A DNA stretch of 31,514 nt from Candidatus Raymondbacteria bacterium RIFOXYA2_FULL_49_16 (GTDB lineage Bacteria; Fibrobacterota; OXYB2-FULL-49-7; XYB2-FULL-49-35), in assembly GCA_001789205.1 (NCBI GenBank), contig MFYT01000072.1:9116-40629 (forward strand). Reading direction: 5' to 3'. Shown one piece after another: positions 20-11,248 of this stretch (position 1 is its first letter; every line of letters begins with the position of its first letter). A program made the translations under genes and the position numbers. The notes beneath the pieces were generated by a model, which searched no databases, was not told where the DNA came from, and saw only the letters and a list, made by a program, of their open reading frames with translations.

Positions 20-1093
20 ATGCTACGCTATGTTGAAATATACCGTACCCTGAAAAGGGAGATCAAAGAAGGCAGATACAAGCCCGACGACAAGCTGCCT
101 TCGGTTTTGGAACTAATGGCAGCCTTCAAAGCAGGCTGCTGCACGGTCCAGCATGCGCTGAATATGCTGGAAAAGGAAGGGGTCATTCAGGGCGTCCCTT
201 CGCAGGGTCTGTTCGTAAGAGACCCGGGGGAGCCACCGCTTTATGGGGGTAAAACAAGAAAAAAACAAATGCTGAGGATCGGCGTGTTACTACGGCGGCC
301 AGTGCTGCTCGTCATTGCTGAGACGCATTATATACAAAAAATGGTCCATGGCATGGGAACCGTCTTATACGAAGCGGGCATGCACGGGTTTCCCATCGAT
401 GTTTTCCATAAAACAAATCATGAGGTCATCAGGGAGATCAACGCGCTCGCGATCGATGGACTTATCTGCGTTGAAATGGAAGACGAAGGGCTTGTACGCG
501 GCATCAAGCAGATGAAGCTTCCCCTGGTGCATTGCGAACTCGTGGATTTCAAAAGCAAGGATCCCATGGTTCTTGCCGACCATTTCCACGGCGGAGAACT
601 CAGCGTCAGACAGCTCGCAAAGTTTTGCCATACCAACGTTCTCTTTCTGCATGGCCATAAAAAAAGCGAACGGAAAACCGACGAGACCAACAGACTCACA
701 TGGCAGGGTATTCAGGCAGGAGCGCGGGCATGCGGCGTTTCCGCGCACCAGGCGTTCATTTCCATGGATACTGAAAACATATGCGCACTTGTGGTACAAG
801 CCCTGAGAAAACATCAGAAATGCATGGGGTTCATCGCGTGCAACCAAAGCATTCTCGAGGGGCTGCGACAAGCCTTTGAAACAGGGGCCTTGCCGGGATC
901 CGCGGAAACCGACATTGTCGTTTTCGATCTGAACGATGAATCCTTGATGGTTCGCGGCAGACCGGTTTGGTTTTGTACGTGGGACGCGGAAAAGATGGGA
1001 AAAATGGCCGCGCACGCGCTTGTAGGAAAAGTAAAGCCCGAACCGCGCGTGCAATTCATCCCCATGACGCTTGTAACAAATGCTCAACAATAA
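20..1093 (+). CDS. GntR-type transcriptional regulator with periplasmic-binding-like sensor domain
   Basis: Predicted cytoplasmic DNA-binding regulator of 357 residues. Residues 1-70 form a GntR-type winged helix: the segment around 'REIKEGRYKPDDKLPS' is the classic start, and 'ALNMLEKEGVI...GLFVRDP' is the recognition helix plus wing. Residues ~80-350 resemble the LacI/AraR periplasmic-binding-like fold used to sense sugars. There is no signal peptide, which fits a cytoplasmic regulator. It is a paralogue of the convergent gene at 1124-2173; the two share the C-terminal pattern VW[FY]C.WD..MG..A and 'PRVQ[FY][IL]PM'. The start is the first ATG in the window and no Shine-Dalgarno is visible in the 19 bases before it, so an upstream start outside the window cannot be excluded. 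The likely target is the adjacent polysaccharide locus and the ligand a sugar or uronate; both are inferred from position. Fold assignment is secure, ligand unknown. Confidence 0.8.
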   Translation: MLRYVEIYRTLKREIKEGRYKPDDKLPSVLELMAAFKAGCCTVQHALNMLEKEGVIQGVPSQGLFVRDPGEPPLYGGKTRKKQMLRIGVLLRRPVLLVIAETHYIQKMVHGMGTVLYEAGMHGFPIDVFHKTNHEVIREINALAIDGLICVEMEDEGLVRGIKQMKLPLVHCELVDFKSKDPMVLADHFHGGELSVRQLAKFCHTNVLFLHGHKKSERKTDETNRLTWQGIQAGARACGVSAHQAFISMDTENICALVVQALRKHQKCMGFIACNQSILEGLRQAFETGALPGSAETDIVVFDLNDESLMVRGRPVWFCTWDAEKMGKMAAHALVGKVKPEPRVQFIPMTLVTNAQQ

Positions 1094-1123
1094 ACGAAAT
1101 CTTACGTAACCAGCGGCCAGATG

Positions 1124-2173
1124 CTAAACCCGCGTGGTCAGATACATGGGCAAATACTGAACGCGCGGCGCCTCTTCAGCCTTTCCCAGCGCCATTTCAG
1201 CTGCTTGGCGGCCCATGTATTCAGTGTCCCATGCGCAGTACCAGACCGGTTTCTGATGTATGTGCATGGGCCGCTCGTTCAGTGAAAACGCCACGACATC
1301 GTATGCAGCGGCCTCGGTCGGCGCCTTTTCAAGAAGCGATTCCCGGACAGCCTCGAGAAGGTCGGAATCCGGGACAATAATGCCTTTGCAGTTGGAATAT
1401 TTCTCGATAATACGGCCCGCGGAAACCACGGGCTCTTCGTTTCTCCTCAGGACCACTTTTTTCCACAGGCAGACGCTGTTCAGTTTCCTTGCCGCTTCTG
1501 CCGCGCCCTTCCATCGCATGATATTCGCCCTATTGGACCTCTGGGAATAGGCATAATAAGCGTGAAGGAAAAGGAAACGTTTATGCCCTTTTTCAAATAG
1601 CTTTTTTACCGCAAGCTCGCCGCCCTGTATATTATTTGGCAGCACCATGCGCCTTTTACTGTACACGTCGAACAGATCAGCGTGCACAATAGGGATACGC
1701 AAGCGTTCAATCTCTCTGCGGAGCGGCCGGTCATCAAATTCCACGGTAATGAGGGCCGTTATACCCAACGCGTGGATCTCCCGGTACAACTCCTGAATGG
1801 TCTTGTTCCACGCTCTAATGATATACAGGTGGCAGTTGGCCCTTTTTAACACGTGTTCTATGCCCTTGAAAATGTTCTGGTAATAGGAACCAGCGAGCGA
1901 TGAGAATACCGTGAGAACAAGGACACCCAACCTGTTCTTCCGCGGCTCAGGTGCGCGCAATAGCGCGGCATTGTCGCGGACAAACGTACCTTTGGACCGA
2001 ATGCCCACCACAAGCCCTTCCTGTTGCAGCAAACGCATGGCGCTCTTTATCGTGCCCGGCGAGCAATTGAGTATCTGCGCCAGCTGAATAAGGTGCGGCA
2101 TCTGGGTAGAAGGGGGGTATATGTTCCCAAGAATGTCTTTACGGAGTTTCTTATATATGGAAAGATATTTCAT
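1124..2173 (-). CDS. GntR-type transcriptional regulator, paralogue of the first gene
   Basis: A 349-residue regulator with the same architecture as its convergent neighbour: an N-terminal GntR winged helix (residues ~1-68, 'MKYLSIYKKLRKDI' through 'GTFVRDN') and a LacI-like ligand-binding domain ending in 'VWYCAWDTEYMG'. The ATG at 2173 is preferred because the winged helix begins immediately after it; only a weak purine stretch (TAGAG) precedes it. The gene is divergent from the first beta-helix gene, with 107 bases between the start codons. This is the usual geometry for a local regulator controlling itself and the neighbouring operon. A TATAAG box lies on this strand at 2188-2193. The stop lies 30 bases from the stop of the first regulator, so the pair is tail to tail. 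Effector unknown. Confidence 0.8.
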   Translation of the reverse strand: MKYLSIYKKLRKDILGNIYPPSTQMPHLIQLAQILNCSPGTIKSAMRLLQQEGLVVGIRSKGTFVRDNAALLRAPEPRKNRLGVLVLTVFSSLAGSYYQNIFKGIEHVLKRANCHLYIIRAWNKTIQELYREIHALGITALITVEFDDRPLRREIERLRIPIVHADLFDVYSKRRMVLPNNIQGGELAVKKLFEKGHKRFLFLHAYYAYSQRSNRANIMRWKGAAEAARKLNSVCLWKKVVLRRNEEPVVSAGRIIEKYSNCKGIIVPDSDLLEAVRESLLEKAPTEAAAYDVVAFSLNERPMHIHQKPVWYCAWDTEYMGRQAAEMALGKAEEAPRVQYLPMYLTTRV

Positions 2174-2280: not shown

Positions 2281-3861
2281 ATGAAAACACTCATCTGTAT
2301 TTCTATCTTGTTGGCGGCTTCCCTGTATTCCGAGGCATATGTCACCTACGACGGCAAACAAGTGCCGCCTTTTCCCATTCCCGCCGGAAGCACCGTGTAC
2401 CGCTGTTCCACATTCGTGAGCTTTTATCTGAACCTGCGCAACCATATGCAACCCAACACTGTTTTTCTCCTTGCCGACGCAACGTACGATTTTGGCACAA
2501 TATCAATAAATATTACGGCCGATAATGTAGCGCTGATCGGCGAGTCCGGGGACCCTTCGAAAGTGATACTGGTCAGCAATGGTTTTGAGAATAACAACAG
2601 TGTCGACCAGGAGAGTATCAAATTATCCGGCGTCCACCGTCCGGTTTTCGCCAATATCACCATTTCCGAATGCCGCTGCAACGCGGTCAAATACTCAAGC
2701 GGCCCTAATAGCGACGTGCTTTTTCACAACGTCCGGTTCATCAATAATGGCGAGCGCAGCATAAAAGGCCCGCGGACCGTCGTGGAACTTGCCCCCGGCT
2801 GCACCATCCGGTACTGCCACTTCGAGAACACGAAAATCCCGTCATCTGACCGGTGCACCGGCCAGCTTTGTGACGGGGAGGACGATGGCGGCAATTACAT
2901 CGCCGGTATGGACATCATGGGATACGACCAGATAGCCATACACGACAATGTGTTTTTAAACATCAAAGGGGCCTCGGGCGGCGGCCGCGCAGGCGTGTTC
3001 CTGTGGACCGGCGGCAAAAATAGCTGGACAATGAGAAACACTTTTATCGGATGCGACCGCAGCATCGCCCATGGTAACTACAGCAGTTCGTCCACATCCG
3101 ACTCCAACGCGTATATAATGAATAACTTCATCGTTCCGGGCGCTGGAAACGCCATTGAACTGTATTGGACCCGGAACGTGCGCATCTTCAATAATACGCT
3201 GTGCGGTCCGAATACCGGTTCTATCATATATCAGAACGCCAGCCTCGGCGGGTCCAACCTCGGCTGTGAGATAAAAAACAACCTGATTTATGGAAGCATA
3301 GCCAACCTGAACGCCACACCGCCCGATACATTGAACAATCTTATTGTGACAAGATCACAAAGCGCGTTATTATCGCGTTGGTTGGTTGACAACGCAAATG
3401 GCGACCTGCATATTAAATCCGACACATGCAGACCGGTTAACCGAGGGATATCACTTCCCGAAGTGACTGTAGACTGGGACAATGCCCCGCGCACTGGTAC
3501 GCTCGATATTGGCGCGGATGAATTCGGCAACGGCAGCCTCATCCAATCATTTGATCCCCGGCTTACGAATCTGGATGATGTGTACCTTTCGCCAGCGCAG
3601 CCGAATCCTTTCAACCCCCATACCCTGGTGCAATATGGGATAACAAACGCCGGGAGCGGAAAACCGTTTGAATGCGCGGTCTTTTCGACCAGCGGCAAGC
3701 TGATTCGAATGCTGAAGCGCGGCGCTGCCATTGCGGGCAACTACGCTCTGCAATGGGACGCAAAGGATGATAACGGCGTGCAAGTAGCAAGCGGCGCCTA
3801 TGTCATCAAGCTTGTAGCAGGGGGAAAAAGCGTAACCACAAATGTTGTTTTCATGAAATAA
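2281..3861 (+). CDS. Secreted right-handed beta-helix protein (putative polysaccharide lyase) with PNPFN C-terminal sorting domain
   Basis: Predicted exported protein of 526 residues. The start at ATG 2281 is preferred over an upstream in-frame start at 2194 because AAAAGGAG lies just before it and it opens a clean signal peptide (MKTLICISILLAASLYSEA, cleavage near residue 19). Residues ~60-400 are short beta-strand repeats rich in 'NN', as in parallel beta-helix pectate-lyase-like proteins. Blocks shared with the two paralogues are GER.IK, CHFENTK.PS, NYIAG.DIM, HDN.FLNIKG..G.GR (Lys229, Arg236) and GCDRSI. A 'DIGADE' block precedes a CTD beginning PNPFNP at residue 441, of the type IX cargo/FlgD-Ig-like kind. 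Lys and Arg in the conserved helix block could be lyase catalytic residues, but this is inference. No CAZy family can be assigned by eye. It is first of a + strand cluster with a glucuronidase and an esterase. Confidence 0.75.
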   Translation: MKTLICISILLAASLYSEAYVTYDGKQVPPFPIPAGSTVYRCSTFVSFYLNLRNHMQPNTVFLLADATYDFGTISINITADNVALIGESGDPSKVILVSNGFENNNSVDQESIKLSGVHRPVFANITISECRCNAVKYSSGPNSDVLFHNVRFINNGERSIKGPRTVVELAPGCTIRYCHFENTKIPSSDRCTGQLCDGEDDGGNYIAGMDIMGYDQIAIHDNVFLNIKGASGGGRAGVFLWTGGKNSWTMRNTFIGCDRSIAHGNYSSSSTSDSNAYIMNNFIVPGAGNAIELYWTRNVRIFNNTLCGPNTGSIIYQNASLGGSNLGCEIKNNLIYGSIANLNATPPDTLNNLIVTRSQSALLSRWLVDNANGDLHIKSDTCRPVNRGISLPEVTVDWDNAPRTGTLDIGADEFGNGSLIQSFDPRLTNLDDVYLSPAQPNPFNPHTLVQYGITNAGSGKPFECAVFSTSGKLIRMLKRGAAIAGNYALQWDAKDDNGVQVASGAYVIKLVAGGKSVTTNVVFMK

Positions 3862-3964
3862 TGCATAGGTGATGTACGGCAATAACAATTTGTCACAGCG
3901 CGTTTCGCGGAAACAACCATGTCAAAAATGTTCGCGATAATCCGCTAAAAACCTTTGGAGGACC
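3862..3964 (+). other. Short intergenic region with ribosome-binding site of the GH2 gene
   Basis: These 103 bases separate the first beta-helix gene from the GH2 gene. They carry GGAGG at 3957-3961, only three bases before the ATG at 3965, which is a tight spacing. No hairpin followed by a T-run and no clear promoter is seen, so cotranscription is plausible. Confidence 0.4.
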
Positions 3965-5953
3965 ATGAATGGTTATTGTATTCTGCTGGCGGTGCTTATG
4001 ATAAGCAGTCAGACGCTGAATGCCGCCGATAATATGGCCACCGACGCCCCTGTCACAGTAGAGGACGAGAGCGTTGCGGCGTCCGCAAAACACGAAAATC
4101 CAATCCCGCAGGGACTTGATTTGAAATCTCTCCAAACCATGGATCCGGCAAACGCCCAAACGGACATGAACCGGTTTTTTAACACAAAACGAATCGAACA
4201 GATACATAACCGGCCGGCAAGTCTTTTTAACGGGTTTTTACCCGGAAGAAGGACAGGAATATCGCTTGCGGGACCCTGGAAAATGGTCCAGGACGTCATG
4301 GGCGCGGGGTTCCGGCGAAAATTCTACATGGTCCAGCCATGGGATCCGCATTCTAACAACCCTATGTCAACAGAGGTCGACTGGGACCACTGGCCCGAGA
4401 TCCAAGTACCGGGAAGTTTTACCACCCAGAGAGAAAACCTGAAATACTATTCGGGATATGCGTGGTATAAACGCTCGTTCGATTTTACGCAAAAAAACGG
4501 TAATGCGGCATATCTGGTTCTCGAAGGGGTGAATTACGCTGCAAAAATCTGGCTGAACGGTTCACTGGCCGGTGAATCAGTGGGAGGATATCTTCCCATT
4601 GTCATGGACATAACAAAGACAGTAAAACCGCAAGACAACCAGTTGGTTGTAATGGTCGACAACCGCATCCTTGATACGCGCGTACCGCCAGCCGAATACG
4701 GTTGGAACAATTGGGGCGGCATAATCCGCGATGTCATATTGTACACGGTCCCAGAAAAGCACATTCAGGATTATCATTACCAGTTCGCCTTGAAAGGGAA
4801 AAATGAGGGCGTCCTCGATATTATTGTACAGGCGTCTTCTGGAGACGGGATGGTTCGGCTGGGTATTCCGGGATTGGTCAAAGCCAGGGACATCCAATTG
4901 GACAAAACCGGACAGGGCCGCGTTTCTATTCCAGTAAAAAAAGTCAGGTTATGGTCGCCTCAAGACCCGTTCCTGCACACACTCACATTATCCTATGGCA
5001 CTGATGTCTATGAAGATAAAATCGGACTCAGGACATTGTCCATTAAAGGGCGTGATTTGTTTTTAAACGGCGCAGCGCTTTTCCTGAAAGGTATCAGCCT
5101 GCACGACGAACCCATTGGCAGGGAAGGGAGGGTCGTTTCCAGGGCAGAGGCTGATGCGCTATTGAAACAGGTCAAAGATTTAAACGGGAACTTTGCACGA
5201 CTGGCCCATTATCCTCATTCACAACACACGGTGTATGCGGCCGATTCCCTGGGAATAATCCTTTGGGAGGAAATTCCAGTATACTGGCAGGTCCGGTTCG
5301 ACCTTCCTGAAACATTTGAAGACGCCCGTAACCAGCTTATACGTTTGATTCAGAGGGACAAAAACCGCGTTTCCTGCGCTTTATGGTCCGTAACCAACGA
5401 AACATGGGACGATTTTGAGTTTGAGAAAGACAGACATTGTTTTACCATGCATTTGGCGGAATTGGCCCGCTCCCTCGATCCCTCGCGATGGGTGACCGCG
5501 GCTGGTTCAGCCAAAAAGAAAGGGCATACACTGACGCTCAAAGACCATCTTTTTGAATTTCTTGATGTCATTGGATTAAACGAATATTACGGCTGGTACG
5601 ATGAAAACGATTATACTATCATAGATTCATTGGAATGGGAGCCGGGCCGGTTTAAAGACAAGCCGGTAATAATTTCTGAAGTGGGCGCTGAAGGGATATA
5701 TGGTTTGCGGGGAAGCATTACCCAGAAATGGACCGAAGACTACCAGGCTGAATTTTACAAGCACCACCTGAATAAACTGAAAACAATCCCCTTTGTTCAG
5801 GGAATAAGCCCATGGATATTAAAAGACTTCAATGAACCCCGGCGATTGAGCCGTCTCCAGAACGGGTATAATCGCAAGGGGATTATTGATGAATATGGAA
5901 AGAAAAAAATGGCGTTTGATGTTTTAAAAGGTTTTTACCAAACCATTCAGTAA
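3965..5953 (+). CDS. Family 2 glycoside hydrolase, beta-glucuronidase-like, exported
   Basis: Predicted retaining exo-glycosidase of 662 residues that removes a terminal beta-linked sugar, probably glucuronic or another uronic acid. A signal peptide (MNGYCILLAVLMISSQTLNA) opens the protein and no lipobox cysteine follows. Jelly-roll and Ig-like domains occupy about residues 85-390 and the TIM barrel follows. The acid/base pair is Asn478-Glu479 in 'SVTNETW'. The nucleophile is Glu572 in 'ISEVGAEG'. Asn636-Arg-Lys638 ('YNRKGI') matches the N-x-K motif that reads the sugar carboxylate in E. coli beta-glucuronidase (Asn566/Lys568). The spacings, 93 residues between glutamates and 64 to the Asn, are close to that enzyme. 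Unlike its neighbours it lacks the PNPFN CTD, so a periplasmic location is inferred. Galacturonidase activity is an alternative. Confidence 0.88.
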   Translation: MNGYCILLAVLMISSQTLNAADNMATDAPVTVEDESVAASAKHENPIPQGLDLKSLQTMDPANAQTDMNRFFNTKRIEQIHNRPASLFNGFLPGRRTGISLAGPWKMVQDVMGAGFRRKFYMVQPWDPHSNNPMSTEVDWDHWPEIQVPGSFTTQRENLKYYSGYAWYKRSFDFTQKNGNAAYLVLEGVNYAAKIWLNGSLAGESVGGYLPIVMDITKTVKPQDNQLVVMVDNRILDTRVPPAEYGWNNWGGIIRDVILYTVPEKHIQDYHYQFALKGKNEGVLDIIVQASSGDGMVRLGIPGLVKARDIQLDKTGQGRVSIPVKKVRLWSPQDPFLHTLTLSYGTDVYEDKIGLRTLSIKGRDLFLNGAALFLKGISLHDEPIGREGRVVSRAEADALLKQVKDLNGNFARLAHYPHSQHTVYAADSLGIILWEEIPVYWQVRFDLPETFEDARNQLIRLIQRDKNRVSCALWSVTNETWDDFEFEKDRHCFTMHLAELARSLDPSRWVTAAGSAKKKGHTLTLKDHLFEFLDVIGLNEYYGWYDENDYTIIDSLEWEPGRFKDKPVIISEVGAEGIYGLRGSITQKWTEDYQAEFYKHHLNKLKTIPFVQGISPWILKDFNEPRRLSRLQNGYNRKGIIDEYGKKKMAFDVLKGFYQTIQ

Positions 5954-5994
5954 ATATTGATCAAGATAATACAACATAGAAGGGGGTATATATA

Positions 5995-8022
5995 ATGACC
6001 GCTTTCAAAACCGCTTCATGCATTACTATAGTAATTCTGTGCGCATTCTATGGTTCTGTATTCGCTGTTCCGTCCAATGTGACCGCATTTTTCCGTGATG
6101 GCCAGACCTTTATCACTTGGACCGAGGACGGGTCCGCCACCTACGATATCTACCGCCATACAGAGGCAATAACCGCTGGCAACATTGCGCAGGCTGTTGC
6201 AATCGCCACAGTGGACAGCCAGTCGTCCAATACAAAATACTATGTAGGCGGCAACATCGGGCAAACCCATTGGATCATCGAACCAAAAACCGCAGATACT
6301 GGCCTGGGCGCACAACTGACAGATTCCCAGGGCCTGTTCGTTCATACGATAAAAGAGGCTTCCGGAAACTTTTATTACGCGGTCTGTTCAGGCGGCTCTT
6401 CCGCTATTTCAGGTAATATAACCGGACCAATCGCTGAACAGAAAATGGTGACACAGCCCATTCCCATATGGCGCAAATATGACAGCGCCAACAACAACAG
6501 GCTCAACATTCACTATGCGCAATTCATGGATTACAGCATCTGGAACGCGGCCCACGAAGGGTATATCTTCAATTTTTCAGTTTCCTTCCCGCCCGCATGG
6601 GACACCGCGACCGCACCCCTTGGGGTCTTTCTGTATATGTACGGAAGGTCATTCGACGGCATTGGCTGGCGGCTTCCGGCCCTTCACGCCTACCCCCTCT
6701 CCACAAACAATATCCGCATGCAGGTGGAAGCGGTCGGGATTCCCACGAGCGGCAATCCAAGCGACTTGCAGGATTGGTATTACGGGTATCGCAACAAGGA
6801 CAGCAGCGCTGTGTACAACTATACTGAGTACCGCGTTATAAAAGCCGTCCTTTTTGTCTGCGCAGAGCTCAAAGGTGATCAGAACAGGGTCTTTGCCTGC
6901 GGCCATTCCATGGGCGCCAGCGGCGTGCTGTCACTTTCAGAGCGCTATCCTTCGGTCTTTTCCGCGGTATACTGTTCCCAGCCCGCCACGGACTGGTCAA
7001 ACCTTGATTTCGCGTTCAACGGCGATGCACGGAAGAATTACGGTTCCCTGGCGGAGAATCTTCCCATATACAATATCCCATTTGACGATTTGGCCCATCC
7101 CGAGCTTGATGCGCTTCTCCAGCAATACAATGGAACGCCGGTGTACGAATGGCAAAACATTCGCCAACAGCTTATGACGCGCGCCGGTGATGACATGCCG
7201 TTGATTTGCACGACCCACGGCCGAAGCGATATAGCGATCAACTGGTCGTCACAGGGGGCCCCGTTCGGCCCAGTGCTGCGCGATTCACGGCGGCCATTCA
7301 AATACATTGTCAATGATGACGTCCATAATGACCAAAAATTCAACTCAGTCAATTTTCTCCAGCTCTTTGGCGACAATGTCACGAAATCCAGCGCCCCGTA
7401 TATTTTCAGGAGAAACGTGTCCATGCCCGGATTCAGCGGCATAAACGAAAGCAACACCCTTGTCAACGCAACATGGACAATGGTCGCGGATTCCCCTTCA
7501 GTGTGGTCCATGACCATAGCGGGGGTCGGCCAGACATGCAACATCACACCGCGGCGCTGCCAGATGTTTTACGCCAATCCCGGCGATAGTTTTGACGTAT
7601 ATGTAGCCGGGACAAAACAACCAACCGGCGTTGCGGCTGATTCGGCGCGGCTGGTGACGGCGATGGATGTTGATCTCACAACCACGAAAACCATCCGCAT
7701 CGTGAACACCTACCGGAATCCGGTGACGATCGTGAAAAAAAACCAGGCTTTGCCGCGCACCGCAGCCATTGAGGCATATCCCAATCCGTTCAATTCTGCT
7801 GTCAAAATAGCAATTATCCAGCAGCAGGCGGCAGGCAGCCAAAAAATGGAGATTGCTATTTATAATGTCCAAGGGGGGCTGGTGAAAAACCTGCCGGCCG
7901 CCAGCCGCCCGTTGTCTACTGGCATTACCTGGGACGCTTCAGACCAGCCGACTGGCGTATATGTGGTACGGGCACGGGTAAACAACGTCCAACTGTCTAA
8001 AAAAATAGCGTTTGTCAAATAA
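5995..8022 (+). CDS. Secreted alpha/beta-hydrolase esterase with PNPFN C-terminal sorting domain
   Basis: Predicted secreted esterase of 675 residues. Signal peptide at residues 1-24 (cleavage ..SVFA|VPS), then a fibronectin-like N-terminal region to ~residue 140. The alpha/beta-hydrolase domain spans ~155-460 and has the nucleophile elbow GHSMG (Ser305), a plausible acid Asp412 in 'HGRSD' and a plausible base His444 in 'DDVHND'. A beta-rich linker follows, then a CTD starting PNPFNS at residue 596 and ending 'SKKIAFVK'. The elbow and overall form resemble PHB-depolymerase/feruloyl-esterase-like hydrolases (CE1-type). The GCSRxG signature of CE15 glucuronoyl esterases is not present. In this locus it would remove ester substituents from a polysaccharide so that the beta-helix proteins and glucuronidase can act; that role is inferred. 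A strong AGGGGG ribosome-binding site at 5975-5980 supports the start. The gene ends 27 bases before a strong terminator. Confidence 0.78.
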   Translation: MTAFKTASCITIVILCAFYGSVFAVPSNVTAFFRDGQTFITWTEDGSATYDIYRHTEAITAGNIAQAVAIATVDSQSSNTKYYVGGNIGQTHWIIEPKTADTGLGAQLTDSQGLFVHTIKEASGNFYYAVCSGGSSAISGNITGPIAEQKMVTQPIPIWRKYDSANNNRLNIHYAQFMDYSIWNAAHEGYIFNFSVSFPPAWDTATAPLGVFLYMYGRSFDGIGWRLPALHAYPLSTNNIRMQVEAVGIPTSGNPSDLQDWYYGYRNKDSSAVYNYTEYRVIKAVLFVCAELKGDQNRVFACGHSMGASGVLSLSERYPSVFSAVYCSQPATDWSNLDFAFNGDARKNYGSLAENLPIYNIPFDDLAHPELDALLQQYNGTPVYEWQNIRQQLMTRAGDDMPLICTTHGRSDIAINWSSQGAPFGPVLRDSRRPFKYIVNDDVHNDQKFNSVNFLQLFGDNVTKSSAPYIFRRNVSMPGFSGINESNTLVNATWTMVADSPSVWSMTIAGVGQTCNITPRRCQMFYANPGDSFDVYVAGTKQPTGVAADSARLVTAMDVDLTTTKTIRIVNTYRNPVTIVKKNQALPRTAAIEAYPNPFNSAVKIAIIQQQAAGSQKMEIAIYNVQGGLVKNLPAASRPLSTGITWDASDQPTGVYVVRARVNNVQLSKKIAFVK

Positions 8023-8048
8023 GAAAATAAAAATGCGTCCGTCATCTG

Positions 8049-8105
8049 GCAGTGTCCGGCCCTCCCCCCCCTCCTCATCATATGGCCGGGCGCTGCTTTT
8101 TTTTT
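8049..8105 (+). terminator. Rho-independent terminator after the esterase gene
   Basis: A 13-base left arm (8049-8061) pairs with 8084-8096 over its whole length, with two G-U pairs. The loop is 22 bases and contains a run of eight C (8064-8071). Nine T follow directly (8097-8105). It should end most transcripts from the upstream genes, so the next beta-helix gene probably needs its own promoter or read-through. Only about 20 bases separate the T-run from the next ATG. Confidence 0.85.
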
Positions 8106-8125
8106 AATTTCAAGGAGGTTATGCC

Positions 8126-9664
8126 ATGCCATTATTCATAATGCTCGTTTGCATGCTTTGGATCGCCCCTTCCGGATATGTCACATTCGACGGTAAAACA
8201 GTGCCCGATCTTCCCCTGTCAGGGACCGTGGTCAATGTGAGCAATGTGTCGCAGTTATATATGGCGCTCCGCAATCAACAGGCCGGACAGACCATTGTGC
8301 TTGCGGCGGGCCAATATAGCGTGGGATCCATAGAATTCCTGGACCTGACAGTGAACAACATCACGGTCAGGGGCGCCACGGGCAATCCCGCGGACGTCGT
8401 GCTGATTGGCAAGGGATTTGAGAACTGCATTGATGTTGAGGAGGAGATGTTCAGGGTGTTCGCGCAGGACATCACGTTCGCTGCCATGACACTCTCCGAA
8501 GTTCGGTGCAATTGCGTAAAATTCCAAGGGGGGGTCAACAACCACACGATTTTTCATAATATGCGATTTTTAAACGTGGGCGAGCGCATGATCAAAGCCC
8601 CTGGCACGCTTGTCGCGGCACAGTGCACTCTGCGATATTGTCATTTTGAGAACACAAAGCTTCCATCAGCCATACGATGCGGCAGCAGCGGCGCTGATTC
8701 CATTGACCGGGACGGTAATTATATCGCGGGCATGGATATTATGAAAGGGGACGGCTGGGTCATTCACGACAACATGTTCCTCAACATCAAAGGCGCCACA
8801 GGCATGGGCAGGGCAGCTACGTTTTTATGGGGCCAGAGCCAGAACATGATTGTGGAACGGAACACGTACATCGGATGCGACCGCAGTATTGCCTTTGGTA
8901 ATTTCGGCGGCAGCGGCACCATTGGCTGCACAGCGCGGAACAACTTCATTGTGCCGGGCACCACCAATGCCATTGAAATCGCCAACAGCACCGGTCCATT
9001 TATATTCAACAACACCTCCTTCAGCGCGCTTTCAACGAATTCCGGCACCATATGGCTCTACAATACACAAAACGCGGAGATAAAAAACAACATCATCTGC
9101 AATGGAATCTCGTCAGACGCTTCAACAGCCGACACAGCGCACAATATTTCCCTTGGCCGGTCGCAGCGGTCCCTTGCGGCGCGCTGGTTTGGCGATGAGG
9201 CCCAGGCTGACCTGCATATTAAGTCCGACACCTGCGCGCCGGTCGACGCAGGGACAACACTCTCGTCCGTGACCGATGATTGGGACGGTACTATGCGCAC
9301 AGGAACGTATGATATAGGCGCTGACGAATCTCCGTTCACCCATAACGCGATACAGGGATATGGAATCACCGAAACGGATGGCCTGGCGCTTGCCGGACCA
9401 GAACCCAATCCTTTCAATCCGGTCACAATCCTTCGATACAAAGTCCCGCACACAATGGCGGGCAACGACCTTTGTATTTCCGTGCATGACATGGCAGGCC
9501 GGGCCATACGCACGGTGCACCGGGCAGCGGCGACACCAGGCTGTCACGCTGCGCTCTGGGACGGGCTTGACGACAACGGAAAGCCGATTCCATCGGGCGC
9601 CTATGTCATCAGCTTGCGCTGCGGGACAAATGTGAAAAGCGTCATGGGGCTATTCAGGCAGTAA
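8126..9664 (+). CDS. Second secreted beta-helix protein with PNPFN C-terminal sorting domain
   Basis: A 512-residue paralogue of the protein at 2281-3861. The start follows AAGGAGG (8112-8118) by seven bases; an out-of-frame ATG at 8121 is ignored. The signal peptide is short and lacks the usual positive charge (MPLFIMLVCMLWIAPSG), so export should be checked. All family blocks are present: GER.IK, CHFENTK.PS, NYIAG.DIM, HDN.FLNIKG..G.GR (Lys222, Arg229), GCDRSI and DIGADE. The CTD begins PNPFNP at residue 427 and contains the typical 'GKPIPSGAYVISL' tail. A run of seven G lies inside the gene at 8528-8534. Beta-helix fold is well supported; the activity, probably polysaccharide lyase or hydrolase, is inferred from family resemblance and neighbours. 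Confidence 0.75.
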   Translation: MPLFIMLVCMLWIAPSGYVTFDGKTVPDLPLSGTVVNVSNVSQLYMALRNQQAGQTIVLAAGQYSVGSIEFLDLTVNNITVRGATGNPADVVLIGKGFENCIDVEEEMFRVFAQDITFAAMTLSEVRCNCVKFQGGVNNHTIFHNMRFLNVGERMIKAPGTLVAAQCTLRYCHFENTKLPSAIRCGSSGADSIDRDGNYIAGMDIMKGDGWVIHDNMFLNIKGATGMGRAATFLWGQSQNMIVERNTYIGCDRSIAFGNFGGSGTIGCTARNNFIVPGTTNAIEIANSTGPFIFNNTSFSALSTNSGTIWLYNTQNAEIKNNIICNGISSDASTADTAHNISLGRSQRSLAARWFGDEAQADLHIKSDTCAPVDAGTTLSSVTDDWDGTMRTGTYDIGADESPFTHNAIQGYGITETDGLALAGPEPNPFNPVTILRYKVPHTMAGNDLCISVHDMAGRAIRTVHRAAATPGCHAALWDGLDDNGKPIPSGAYVISLRCGTNVKSVMGLFRQ

Positions 9665-9690
9665 CTGTTCGAAGTATATGGCATAAACTC

Positions 9691-9703
9691 TAGGGGGGGG
9701 GCT
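9691..9703 (+). promoter_or_regulatory. Unusual poly-G ribosome-binding site of the third beta-helix gene
   Basis: A run of nine G (9693-9701) lies two bases before the ATG at 9704 and is the only Shine-Dalgarno-like element there. A homopolymer this long can slip during replication. Gain or loss of a G would change the length of the anti-Shine-Dalgarno match and thus expression. This effect is inferred. Confidence 0.5.
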
Positions 9704-11248
9704 ATGAGGATTTTTCTTTCGATTCTCGTTGGTTTCATGTTTACAACCCATATCATTGCATGGACAACATGGGACAACAAAAGCGTACCAGTGCTGGCCG
9801 CTCCGGCTAACCCGGTCATTTGTTCAACCTCGACGCAATTGTATATGGCGTTACGCACGCAGCAGCCAGGAAGGGCTGTTGTACTTAAAGATGGGACATA
9901 CAACATCGCGTCGATTGAGCCGCTCAGGATCGATTCGCCGCGCGTTTCCATCCGCGGAATGTCGGGAAATCCCACGGCAATCGTCCTTGTCGGCAAGGGG
10001 TTTGAAAACTGCGATGATGTTGAAGAAGAAATGTTGCAGTTATACGGTACCGATGTCCTGCTGGCCGATTTTACCATATCTGAATGCCGGTGCAATTGCG
10101 TTAAATTCCAAAGCGGTGCAAACAATAACACAGTGTTCCACAATGTTCATTTCCTGAACGTGGGCGAGCGCATGATCAAACATCCCAATGTTCCTTTCTC
10201 AGAAAGTTGCACGCTCCGACACTGTCATTTTGAAAACACCAAGATACCATCAGCATCAAGGTGCGGCAGCAATTCCCTGGACCAGGACGGCAATTATATC
10301 GCTGGCATCGATATCATGTATGGCCGGAACTGGGTCATTCATGACAATGTATTTCTCAACATCAAGGGATCGAGCGGCGGCGGACGCGGGGCCATATTCC
10401 TATGGGGAATGTCCGAAAACATGGTCTCTGAACGGAACACGATTGCGGGCTGCGACAGGAGCATATGCTACGGCAATCCAGGCGGCAGCTATGTTATTGG
10501 CGGGATCATCAGGAACAACTTCATCAACCGCGGGGCAGGCCAGGCCATGGAAATATGCCAATCTTCAAACATTCAAACATTCAACAACACCGTATATAGC
10601 ACTGTCCCAACCTATTCTTTGGCGATCAGCTACTACCAGCCCGGCGGCGGAAATGAGTTTAAAAACAACATTGTTTTCGGGAACCTGTACCGTAATGGCG
10701 GCGCGGTGGTCGACACTGCGCGGAACCTGATCAGGACCACAATGCAAAACTGGTTTATCAGCCCTGCAACCAACGATCTTCATCTGAACGCCTTTGCGAC
10801 AGCGGCTGTCAACAGCGGCCTTGCGAATCTGGTGACCGATGACTGGAACGGCCATTGCCGGGCAGCGACAGACGCCTTAACGGATATTGGCGCTGACGAA
10901 TATAATTCAGTGGTTGTCCAGTGCCCTGGTCCGGCCATAGAAACAAACAGTGATATGTCTGCCGGAAACATAAAAATCACGGCCATGCCGAATCCGTTTA
11001 ATTCCGCCGTCACTATTACAGTAGAGGATGTCAACGGGCAGCAGGCAGTGAAAAGAGAGAACGCAAGAATAGATATTTTTACTATCCATGGAAAACATGT
11101 TCAATCACTGCCAGTTGCACGTCCGGCCTTGGGCGGACTGTCCGCTAGTTTCATATGGGACGCATCAGCCCAGCCTTCAGGCGCATATATAATAAGGGTA
11201 ATTATAGAAGAAAAAATCCTGGTAAAACAGATTATATTTATGAAATAA
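9704..11248 (+). CDS. Third secreted beta-helix protein with PNPFN C-terminal sorting domain
   Basis: A 514-residue paralogue of the two other beta-helix proteins and closest in order to the second, 39 bases upstream. Signal peptide MRIFLSILVGFMFTTHIIA. Family blocks are intact: GER.IK, CHFENTK.PS, NYIAG.DIM, HDN.FLNIKG..G.GR (Lys221, Arg228), GCDRSI and DIGADE. The CTD starts PNPFNS at residue 429 and ends 'VKQIIFMK'. A 24-base stretch (10157-10180) is identical in DNA to 8573-8596 of the second gene, which suggests duplication or gene conversion. It is the last gene of the carbohydrate locus; its stop is six bases from the convergent oxidoreductase stop and no terminator fits between them. 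Function as for the paralogues: polysaccharide-active by inference. Confidence 0.75.
   Translation: MRIFLSILVGFMFTTHIIAWTTWDNKSVPVLAAPANPVICSTSTQLYMALRTQQPGRAVVLKDGTYNIASIEPLRIDSPRVSIRGMSGNPTAIVLVGKGFENCDDVEEEMLQLYGTDVLLADFTISECRCNCVKFQSGANNNTVFHNVHFLNVGERMIKHPNVPFSESCTLRHCHFENTKIPSASRCGSNSLDQDGNYIAGIDIMYGRNWVIHDNVFLNIKGSSGGGRGAIFLWGMSENMVSERNTIAGCDRSICYGNPGGSYVIGGIIRNNFINRGAGQAMEICQSSNIQTFNNTVYSTVPTYSLAISYYQPGGGNEFKNNIVFGNLYRNGGAVVDTARNLIRTTMQNWFISPATNDLHLNAFATAAVNSGLANLVTDDWNGHCRAATDALTDIGADEYNSVVVQCPGPAIETNSDMSAGNIKITAMPNPFNSAVTITVEDVNGQQAVKRENARIDIFTIHGKHVQSLPVARPALGGLSASFIWDASAQPSGAYIIRVIIEEKILVKQIIFMK

Follow-up and report, generated by a model that had tools for sequence, protein, structure and literature searches.

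The window, a 31,514-nucleotide stretch from Candidatus Raymondbacteria bacterium RIFOXYA2_FULL_49_16, encodes three exported right-handed beta-helix proteins, here called P1, P2 and P3, whose family probably comprises enzymes that cleave an acylated, acidic polysaccharide. The reading we prefer, to which we give a probability of roughly 0.4, is that of a surface-displayed endo-hydrolase acting on such a polymer. At somewhat less than even odds, the proteins would also found a new family of carbohydrate-active enzymes, one with a catalytic set of its own (R-K-Y-D-R-D, spread over four coils) and without an apparent metal site, in 26 surface-displayed copies here and with repeated SGNH fusions elsewhere. 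Should the family prove active, it would be a new group of depolymerases in a fold whose structure alone tells neither family nor reaction type (lyase, hydrolase or epimerase).

P1, a GH2 uronidase, an esterase-like protein, P2 and P3 form one operon of five co-directional genes at 2281-11248, separated by gaps of 40-104 bases. Residues are numbered on P2 unless otherwise stated, and the features are as follows.

20..1093, + strand: GntR HTH plus LacI-type sensor regulator in the upstream flank (profile match)
1124..2173, - strand: second GntR HTH plus LacI-type sensor regulator, divergent from the operon (profile match)
2281..3861, + strand: P1, exported right-handed beta-helix protein with a C-terminal T9SS/FlgD-type tail (ORF, profile matches)
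3965..5953, + strand: GH2 uronidase of the beta-glucuronidase/beta-galacturonidase type (GH2 domains, NE acid/base, NxK motif)
5995..8022, + strand: exported esterase-like alpha/beta hydrolase with a T9SS tail (PF00756, 26.2 bits, cut-off 22)
8126..9664, + strand: P2, exported beta-helix protein, the reference for residue numbering (ORF, AlphaFold model m99909fca19e9)
8585..8596, + strand: P2 R154 to K157 of GER.IK, coil 5 (K157 in 52/53 relatives)
8720..8737, + strand: P2 Y199 (52/53) to D204 (51/53) of NYIAG.DIM, coil 6 (alignment of 53)
8789..8791, + strand: P2 K222, the Lys singled out by the earlier note, variable among relatives (K 21, R 19, Q 7 of 53)
8810..8812, + strand: P2 R229 (48/53), the Arg singled out by the earlier note, at the groove-strand start of coil 7 (alignment of 53)
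8879..8881, + strand: P2 D252 of GCDRSI (49/53), coil 8 (alignment of 53)
9704..11248, + strand: P3, exported beta-helix protein with a T9SS-type tail (ORF, profile matches)

A GTG in the same frame is present farther upstream, at 2194, but P1 is read from the ATG at 2281, which opens a signal peptide. The two flanking regulators are among five related GntR-LacI hybrids (cluster c3) that occur at three beta-helix loci (window 20-2173, L041:3656-5689 and L049:982-2034) and may control the loci where they sit.

The earlier note had recognized three exported beta-helix paralogues, and the open reading frames, their identity, the AlphaFold models and the structure matches all bear this out. P2 and P3 are 46% and 40% identical to P1 over the whole length (range for the three, 40-46%), and in a search of their own genome P1 and P3 score 406-426 bits against P2, so the likeness is not due to chance. 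All of the sequence blocks quoted there (GER.IK, CHFENTK.PS, NYIAG.DIM, HDN.FLNIKG..G.GR, GCDRSI and DIGADE) are found in P1, P2 and P3. Models of two family members, with mean pLDDT of 78 and 80, have a right-handed, pectate-lyase-like beta-helix, with structure matches at Z up to 31 and rmsd 2.0, and an asparagine ladder (N246, N273, N296 and N322) is kept in 52-53 of 53 sequences. The C-termini of all three proteins resemble FlgD_ig/Por_Secre_tail. The tail of P1 passes the cut-offs of both TIGR04183 (24.5 bits; cut-off 23) and FlgD_ig (31.2 bits; cut-off 27), whereas the sorting-domain scores of P2 (14.6) and P3 (21.1) fall under 23. A T9SS sortase is encoded in the genome (481 bits; cut-off 420), and P1 thus joins an above-threshold C-terminal sorting domain to a genomic sortase, as expected of T9SS cargo.

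As the earlier note had suspected, the shared blocks match no named family: the helix of P1-P3 stays under the cut-off of every Pfam and NCBIfam enzyme model, and PDB sequence searches place it in no named family. The commonest match is the generic PF13229 Beta_helix, found in 25 of 34 members. In the literature searched, which covered a minority of subscription papers, no account of the family turned up, and relative to Pfam, NCBIfam, the PDB and that literature the family is unclassified. Comparison of the models with known structures returned AlgE-type epimerases, PL9, PL31, PL6, GH141 and GH28 tied at Z 26-31, and lyase, epimerase and hydrolase therefore cannot be separated by fold, a tie that also weighs against our own reading.

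The helix domain is present in 26 copies on 17 contigs of its own genome (5.43 Mb, completeness 100), whereas a relative, and a divergent one, occurs in only 4 of 166 other genomes of the same phylum. Among genomes of the phylum to which the Planctomycetota locus belongs, 27 of 392 carry the family, and for the phylum of the Armatimonadota locus the figure is 12 of 201. A 66-row tree gathers 22 of the own copies in one clade (99/96), indicating that most arose by duplication inside this lineage; P1-P3 lie in different parts of that clade, and own copy L051 is placed elsewhere. Such an expansion suggests that the polymer matters greatly to how this bacterium lives. A pairing of two subclades at tandem loci (6 of 7 multi-copy loci mixed) was considered and set aside as not significant (p ~0.15, a rough estimate). 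Searches of PHROGs gave no match for P2 and weak tailspike matches for one relative, no homologue was found among plasmid records, and a viral structure library returned generic beta-helices only.

Conserved charged and hydroxyl residues on the groove strands were tallied over 53 sequences. Six stand out: R154 (48), K157 (52), Y199 (52), D204 (51), R229 (48) and D252 (49). Three phyla are represented among these relatives, and 48 of the 53 keep the complete set. Their equivalents in P1 are R159, K162, Y206, D211, R236 and D259, numbered from the ATG at 2281. Both AlphaFold models predict that the set lies in coils 5-8, on the last strand of each or a few residues ahead of it, a coil register deduced from secondary structure and alignment; in L015 numbering the correspondence is R167 and K170 (strand 167-170), Y205 and D210 (207-212), R235 (236-241) and D258 (261-263). 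The earlier note had instead proposed as catalytic a Lys and an Arg seven residues apart, within a block that it called invariant. Its numbering (229/236, 222/229 and 221/228 in P1, P2 and P3) is correct, and the Arg is indeed widely kept as R229, but at position 222 the 53 sequences show 21 K, 19 R, 7 Q, 2 L and 1 N. The Lys of that pair is thus not conserved, and the invariant Lys is K157 of GER.IK. The check set by the earlier note, whether conserved Lys, Arg and His cluster in one groove, turns out better in part, as the models put conserved charged residues along one groove face, with K157 rather than K222 as the Lys; the His of HDN (position 214) is H in only 22 of 53.

Two departures from the six-residue pattern were observed. 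In a small divergent clade (L097, L100 and L089 (6627-10295)), R154 is replaced by Q, R229 by G, D252 by E or A and M206 by H, all in concert, and its members may differ in activity. Separately, the own copy L043:7733-9250 has lost three of the six residues (W-K-Y-T-M-D) with its reading frame intact, and is perhaps a non-catalytic paralogue.

The main rival explanation, which we consider rather unlikely, is a polysaccharide lyase of a new family that cleaves a uronan by beta-elimination. K157 (or Y199) would then serve as proton acceptor/donor, and R154/R229 would neutralize the carboxylate instead of a metal ion. The PL31 alginate lyase PsAly is the best PDB profile match of an eight-sequence alignment (E 0.0096, collinear over 208 positions), hhalign agrees with this register up to residue 152 (prob 91) and is weak beyond it, and PsAly (6kfn) superposes with rmsd 2.1-2.2 over 263-264 residues at 18-20% identity. 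In PsAly, whose numbering is fixed by Cys42/Cys47, Tyr184 and Lys221 are catalytic and Glu181, Glu216 and Asp219 are cation ligands (PMC6796002). The weak alignment (E 0.0096) pairs Tyr184 with K157, Glu181 with R154 and Asp219 with D204, so that the same pocket may serve; but Glu216 falls on A201, leaving one of three ligands, and the catalytic Lys221 appears to fall on M206, which is Met in 47 of 53 sequences. If the alignment holds, the PL31 pocket may be shared and the chemistry would then be different. A different coil pairing, taken from the asparagine ladder (Y199 with Tyr184, R229 with Lys221), might hold but is less favored, as it lies one coil away from the register of the HMM and hhalign alignments. 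M206 would presumably be the place of AlgE His154 as well, and the His of the divergent clade probably occupies this AlgE/PL31 base position. That clade, together with AlgE-type structures among the top matches (Z 29.5-31), is what speaks for a C-5 epimerase or other non-cleaving uronan modifier, a reading that we regard as very improbable given the prevailing Met at 206 and the absence from the sequences read of the epimerase motif YG(F/I)DPH(D/E) (PMC8824271), in place of which the conserved segment is GNYIAG.DIM.

The genome itself bears on the choice between elimination and hydrolysis. Uronate lyases leave unsaturated uronic ends, which are usually handled by GH88/GH105 and, for ketouronates, by KduI, whereas a hydrolytic GH2 uronidase acts on saturated ends and would not act on the unsaturated ends made by a lyase. 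Neither a GH88/GH105 match over cut-off nor KduI was found in the genome, which is scored 100% complete. The neighboring gene that the earlier note had called a glucuronidase is well founded as a uronidase: it is a GH2 protein with NE acid/base residues at 478-479 and the NxK carboxylate motif at 636-638 (YNRKG), and it scores 417 bits against the Bacteroides glucuronidase 6d89 and 409 bits against the beta-galacturonidase AqGalA (7vqm). We therefore put hydrolysis ahead of elimination, because GH88/GH105 and KduI are absent, the GH2 enzyme needs saturated ends, and two conserved aspartates lie in the basic groove. Together with the apparent Met at the PL31/AlgE base position, this leaves the endo-lyase on a uronan, toward which the earlier note had leaned, as the less favored reading. 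Some points pull the other way: by sequence profile, lyases (PL31 and PL6) come closest among solved relatives, the aspartates may instead have a structural role or form salt bridges with the basic residues, and a missing GH88/KduI pathway is still compatible with a lyase whose products go another route.

Esterases recur around the family. The esterase that the earlier note had placed next to the helices does adjoin them as an esterase-like protein. PF00756-type esterases are modestly enriched near the beta-helix copies, 5 of 34 lying no more than 5 kb away versus 1.2 expected, which limits what association outside fusions can say for the endo-hydrolase. Counting the window protein, the genome contains 34 matches to this esterase type, a second large exported-enzyme family. 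Of the 26 GDSL genes in the own genome, 3 are no more than 1 kb from a copy versus 0.22 expected (P 0.0013), and elsewhere GDSL is the commonest enzyme among the neighbors scanned (4 of 82). An SGNH/GDSL esterase is fused N- or C-terminally to the helix in seven relatives from Planctomycetota and Armatimonadota. Six of these belong to one 12-member clade (100/100) that spans both phyla and the seventh, L097, belongs to another, giving at least two independent fusion events on the tree. If the family is active, the fusions suggest that its substrates are acidic polysaccharides bearing acyl groups.

These fusions also bear on the idea that the proteins are non-catalytic, T9SS-displayed carbohydrate-binding or adhesive beta-helices amplified as binding modules. 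Many beta-helix proteins are non-enzymatic (the PfbA adhesin matches at Z 28), the 26 copies carry C-terminal sorting tails, and some Planctomycetota relatives bear C-terminal extensions of no recognized enzyme type. A near-strict charged patch across three phyla and repeated esterase fusion would, however, be more typical of enzymes, and we consider a pure binding role improbable.

Other neighbors in the own genome include GH2, GH94 and sulfatases. An exported family of ~783 amino acids (KVY[ST]PKVLT.HVADLSG.W...) recurs beside copies at L040:9478-11826(-), L043:10429-12783(+) and L050:4152-6503(-); the one member scanned, L040:9478, has no Pfam domain except a T9SS tail. A further secreted neighbor family (cluster c4) recurs at L041:16247-17878(+), L042:7835-9385(+), L046:4156-6690(+) and L044:9925-11871(-). 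Its members at L041 and L042 carry the motif ..YKGAFRLP.. or ..YLGAFRLP.., and L041:16247, the single member scanned, has no Pfam match.

In the endo-hydrolase reading, P1-P3 would be exported and displayed on the surface by the T9SS, and the substrate would probably lie along the face of one strand per coil, the PB1 face of pectate-lyase-like folds. There the six residues would form a patch over four consecutive coils, in which the basic residues probably hold an anionic (uronic or sulfated) chain while D204 and D252, separated by some two coils, probably serve as the acid and the base. Hydrolysis would then break the chain at internal positions. Acyl groups would be stripped by esterases, either alpha/beta hydrolases or SGNH/GDSL proteins and sometimes in the same polypeptide, and the GH2 uronidase would take off saturated terminal uronic acids.

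Compared with known systems, the family resembles PL31 PsAly in its single-domain right-handed helix, similar length and conserved residues on the same face, but shares only 18-20% identity with it, and the best alignment sets Lys157/Met206 against catalytic Tyr184/Lys221, Arg154 against Glu181 and Ala201 against Glu216. With PL6 (chondroitinase B and alginate lyases) it has in common the fold, top Foldseek matches and an N-terminal cap, eL..A...A..GdtI.l.dGtY; a PL6 chain reaches E 9e-7 in the PDB profile search, largely through this common cap and the repeats. P2 scores 13.6 of the 24 bits needed for PF14592 Chondroitinas_B, for which P1 and P3 are not listed. PL6 enzymes use a catalytic Lys and Arg together with an E-x-E Ca site; the PL6 Lys motif GE.E..S.KS appears unmatched in the weak alignment with 7dmk, which has no Lys at that position. 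The AlgE/AlgG mannuronan C-5 epimerases share the fold (AlgE Z ~30) and a Tyr and Asp on the groove face, but differ in their YG(F/I)DPH motif and in the base position, here probably Met. Choice-of-anchor Q proteins (NF041518) share the C-terminal motif D.GADE, but the score is 13.3 bits against a cut-off of 25. GH28 enzymes, which also combine aspartates with basic residues, are alike in fold, as is GH141 (both at Z 26-30); P1-P3 give no match to PF00295 at cut-off, and 1 of 34 members matches this GH28 model, at E 0.0016. The GH141 enzyme BT_1002 (5mqp) matches the models at Z 29-30 with 17-20% identity over 274-292 residues, and was not retrieved when the PDB was searched by sequence profile to E 10. 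GH141 also offers a precedent, as an unassigned PF13229 beta-helix protein turned out to be a GH141 xylanase (PMC5593877).
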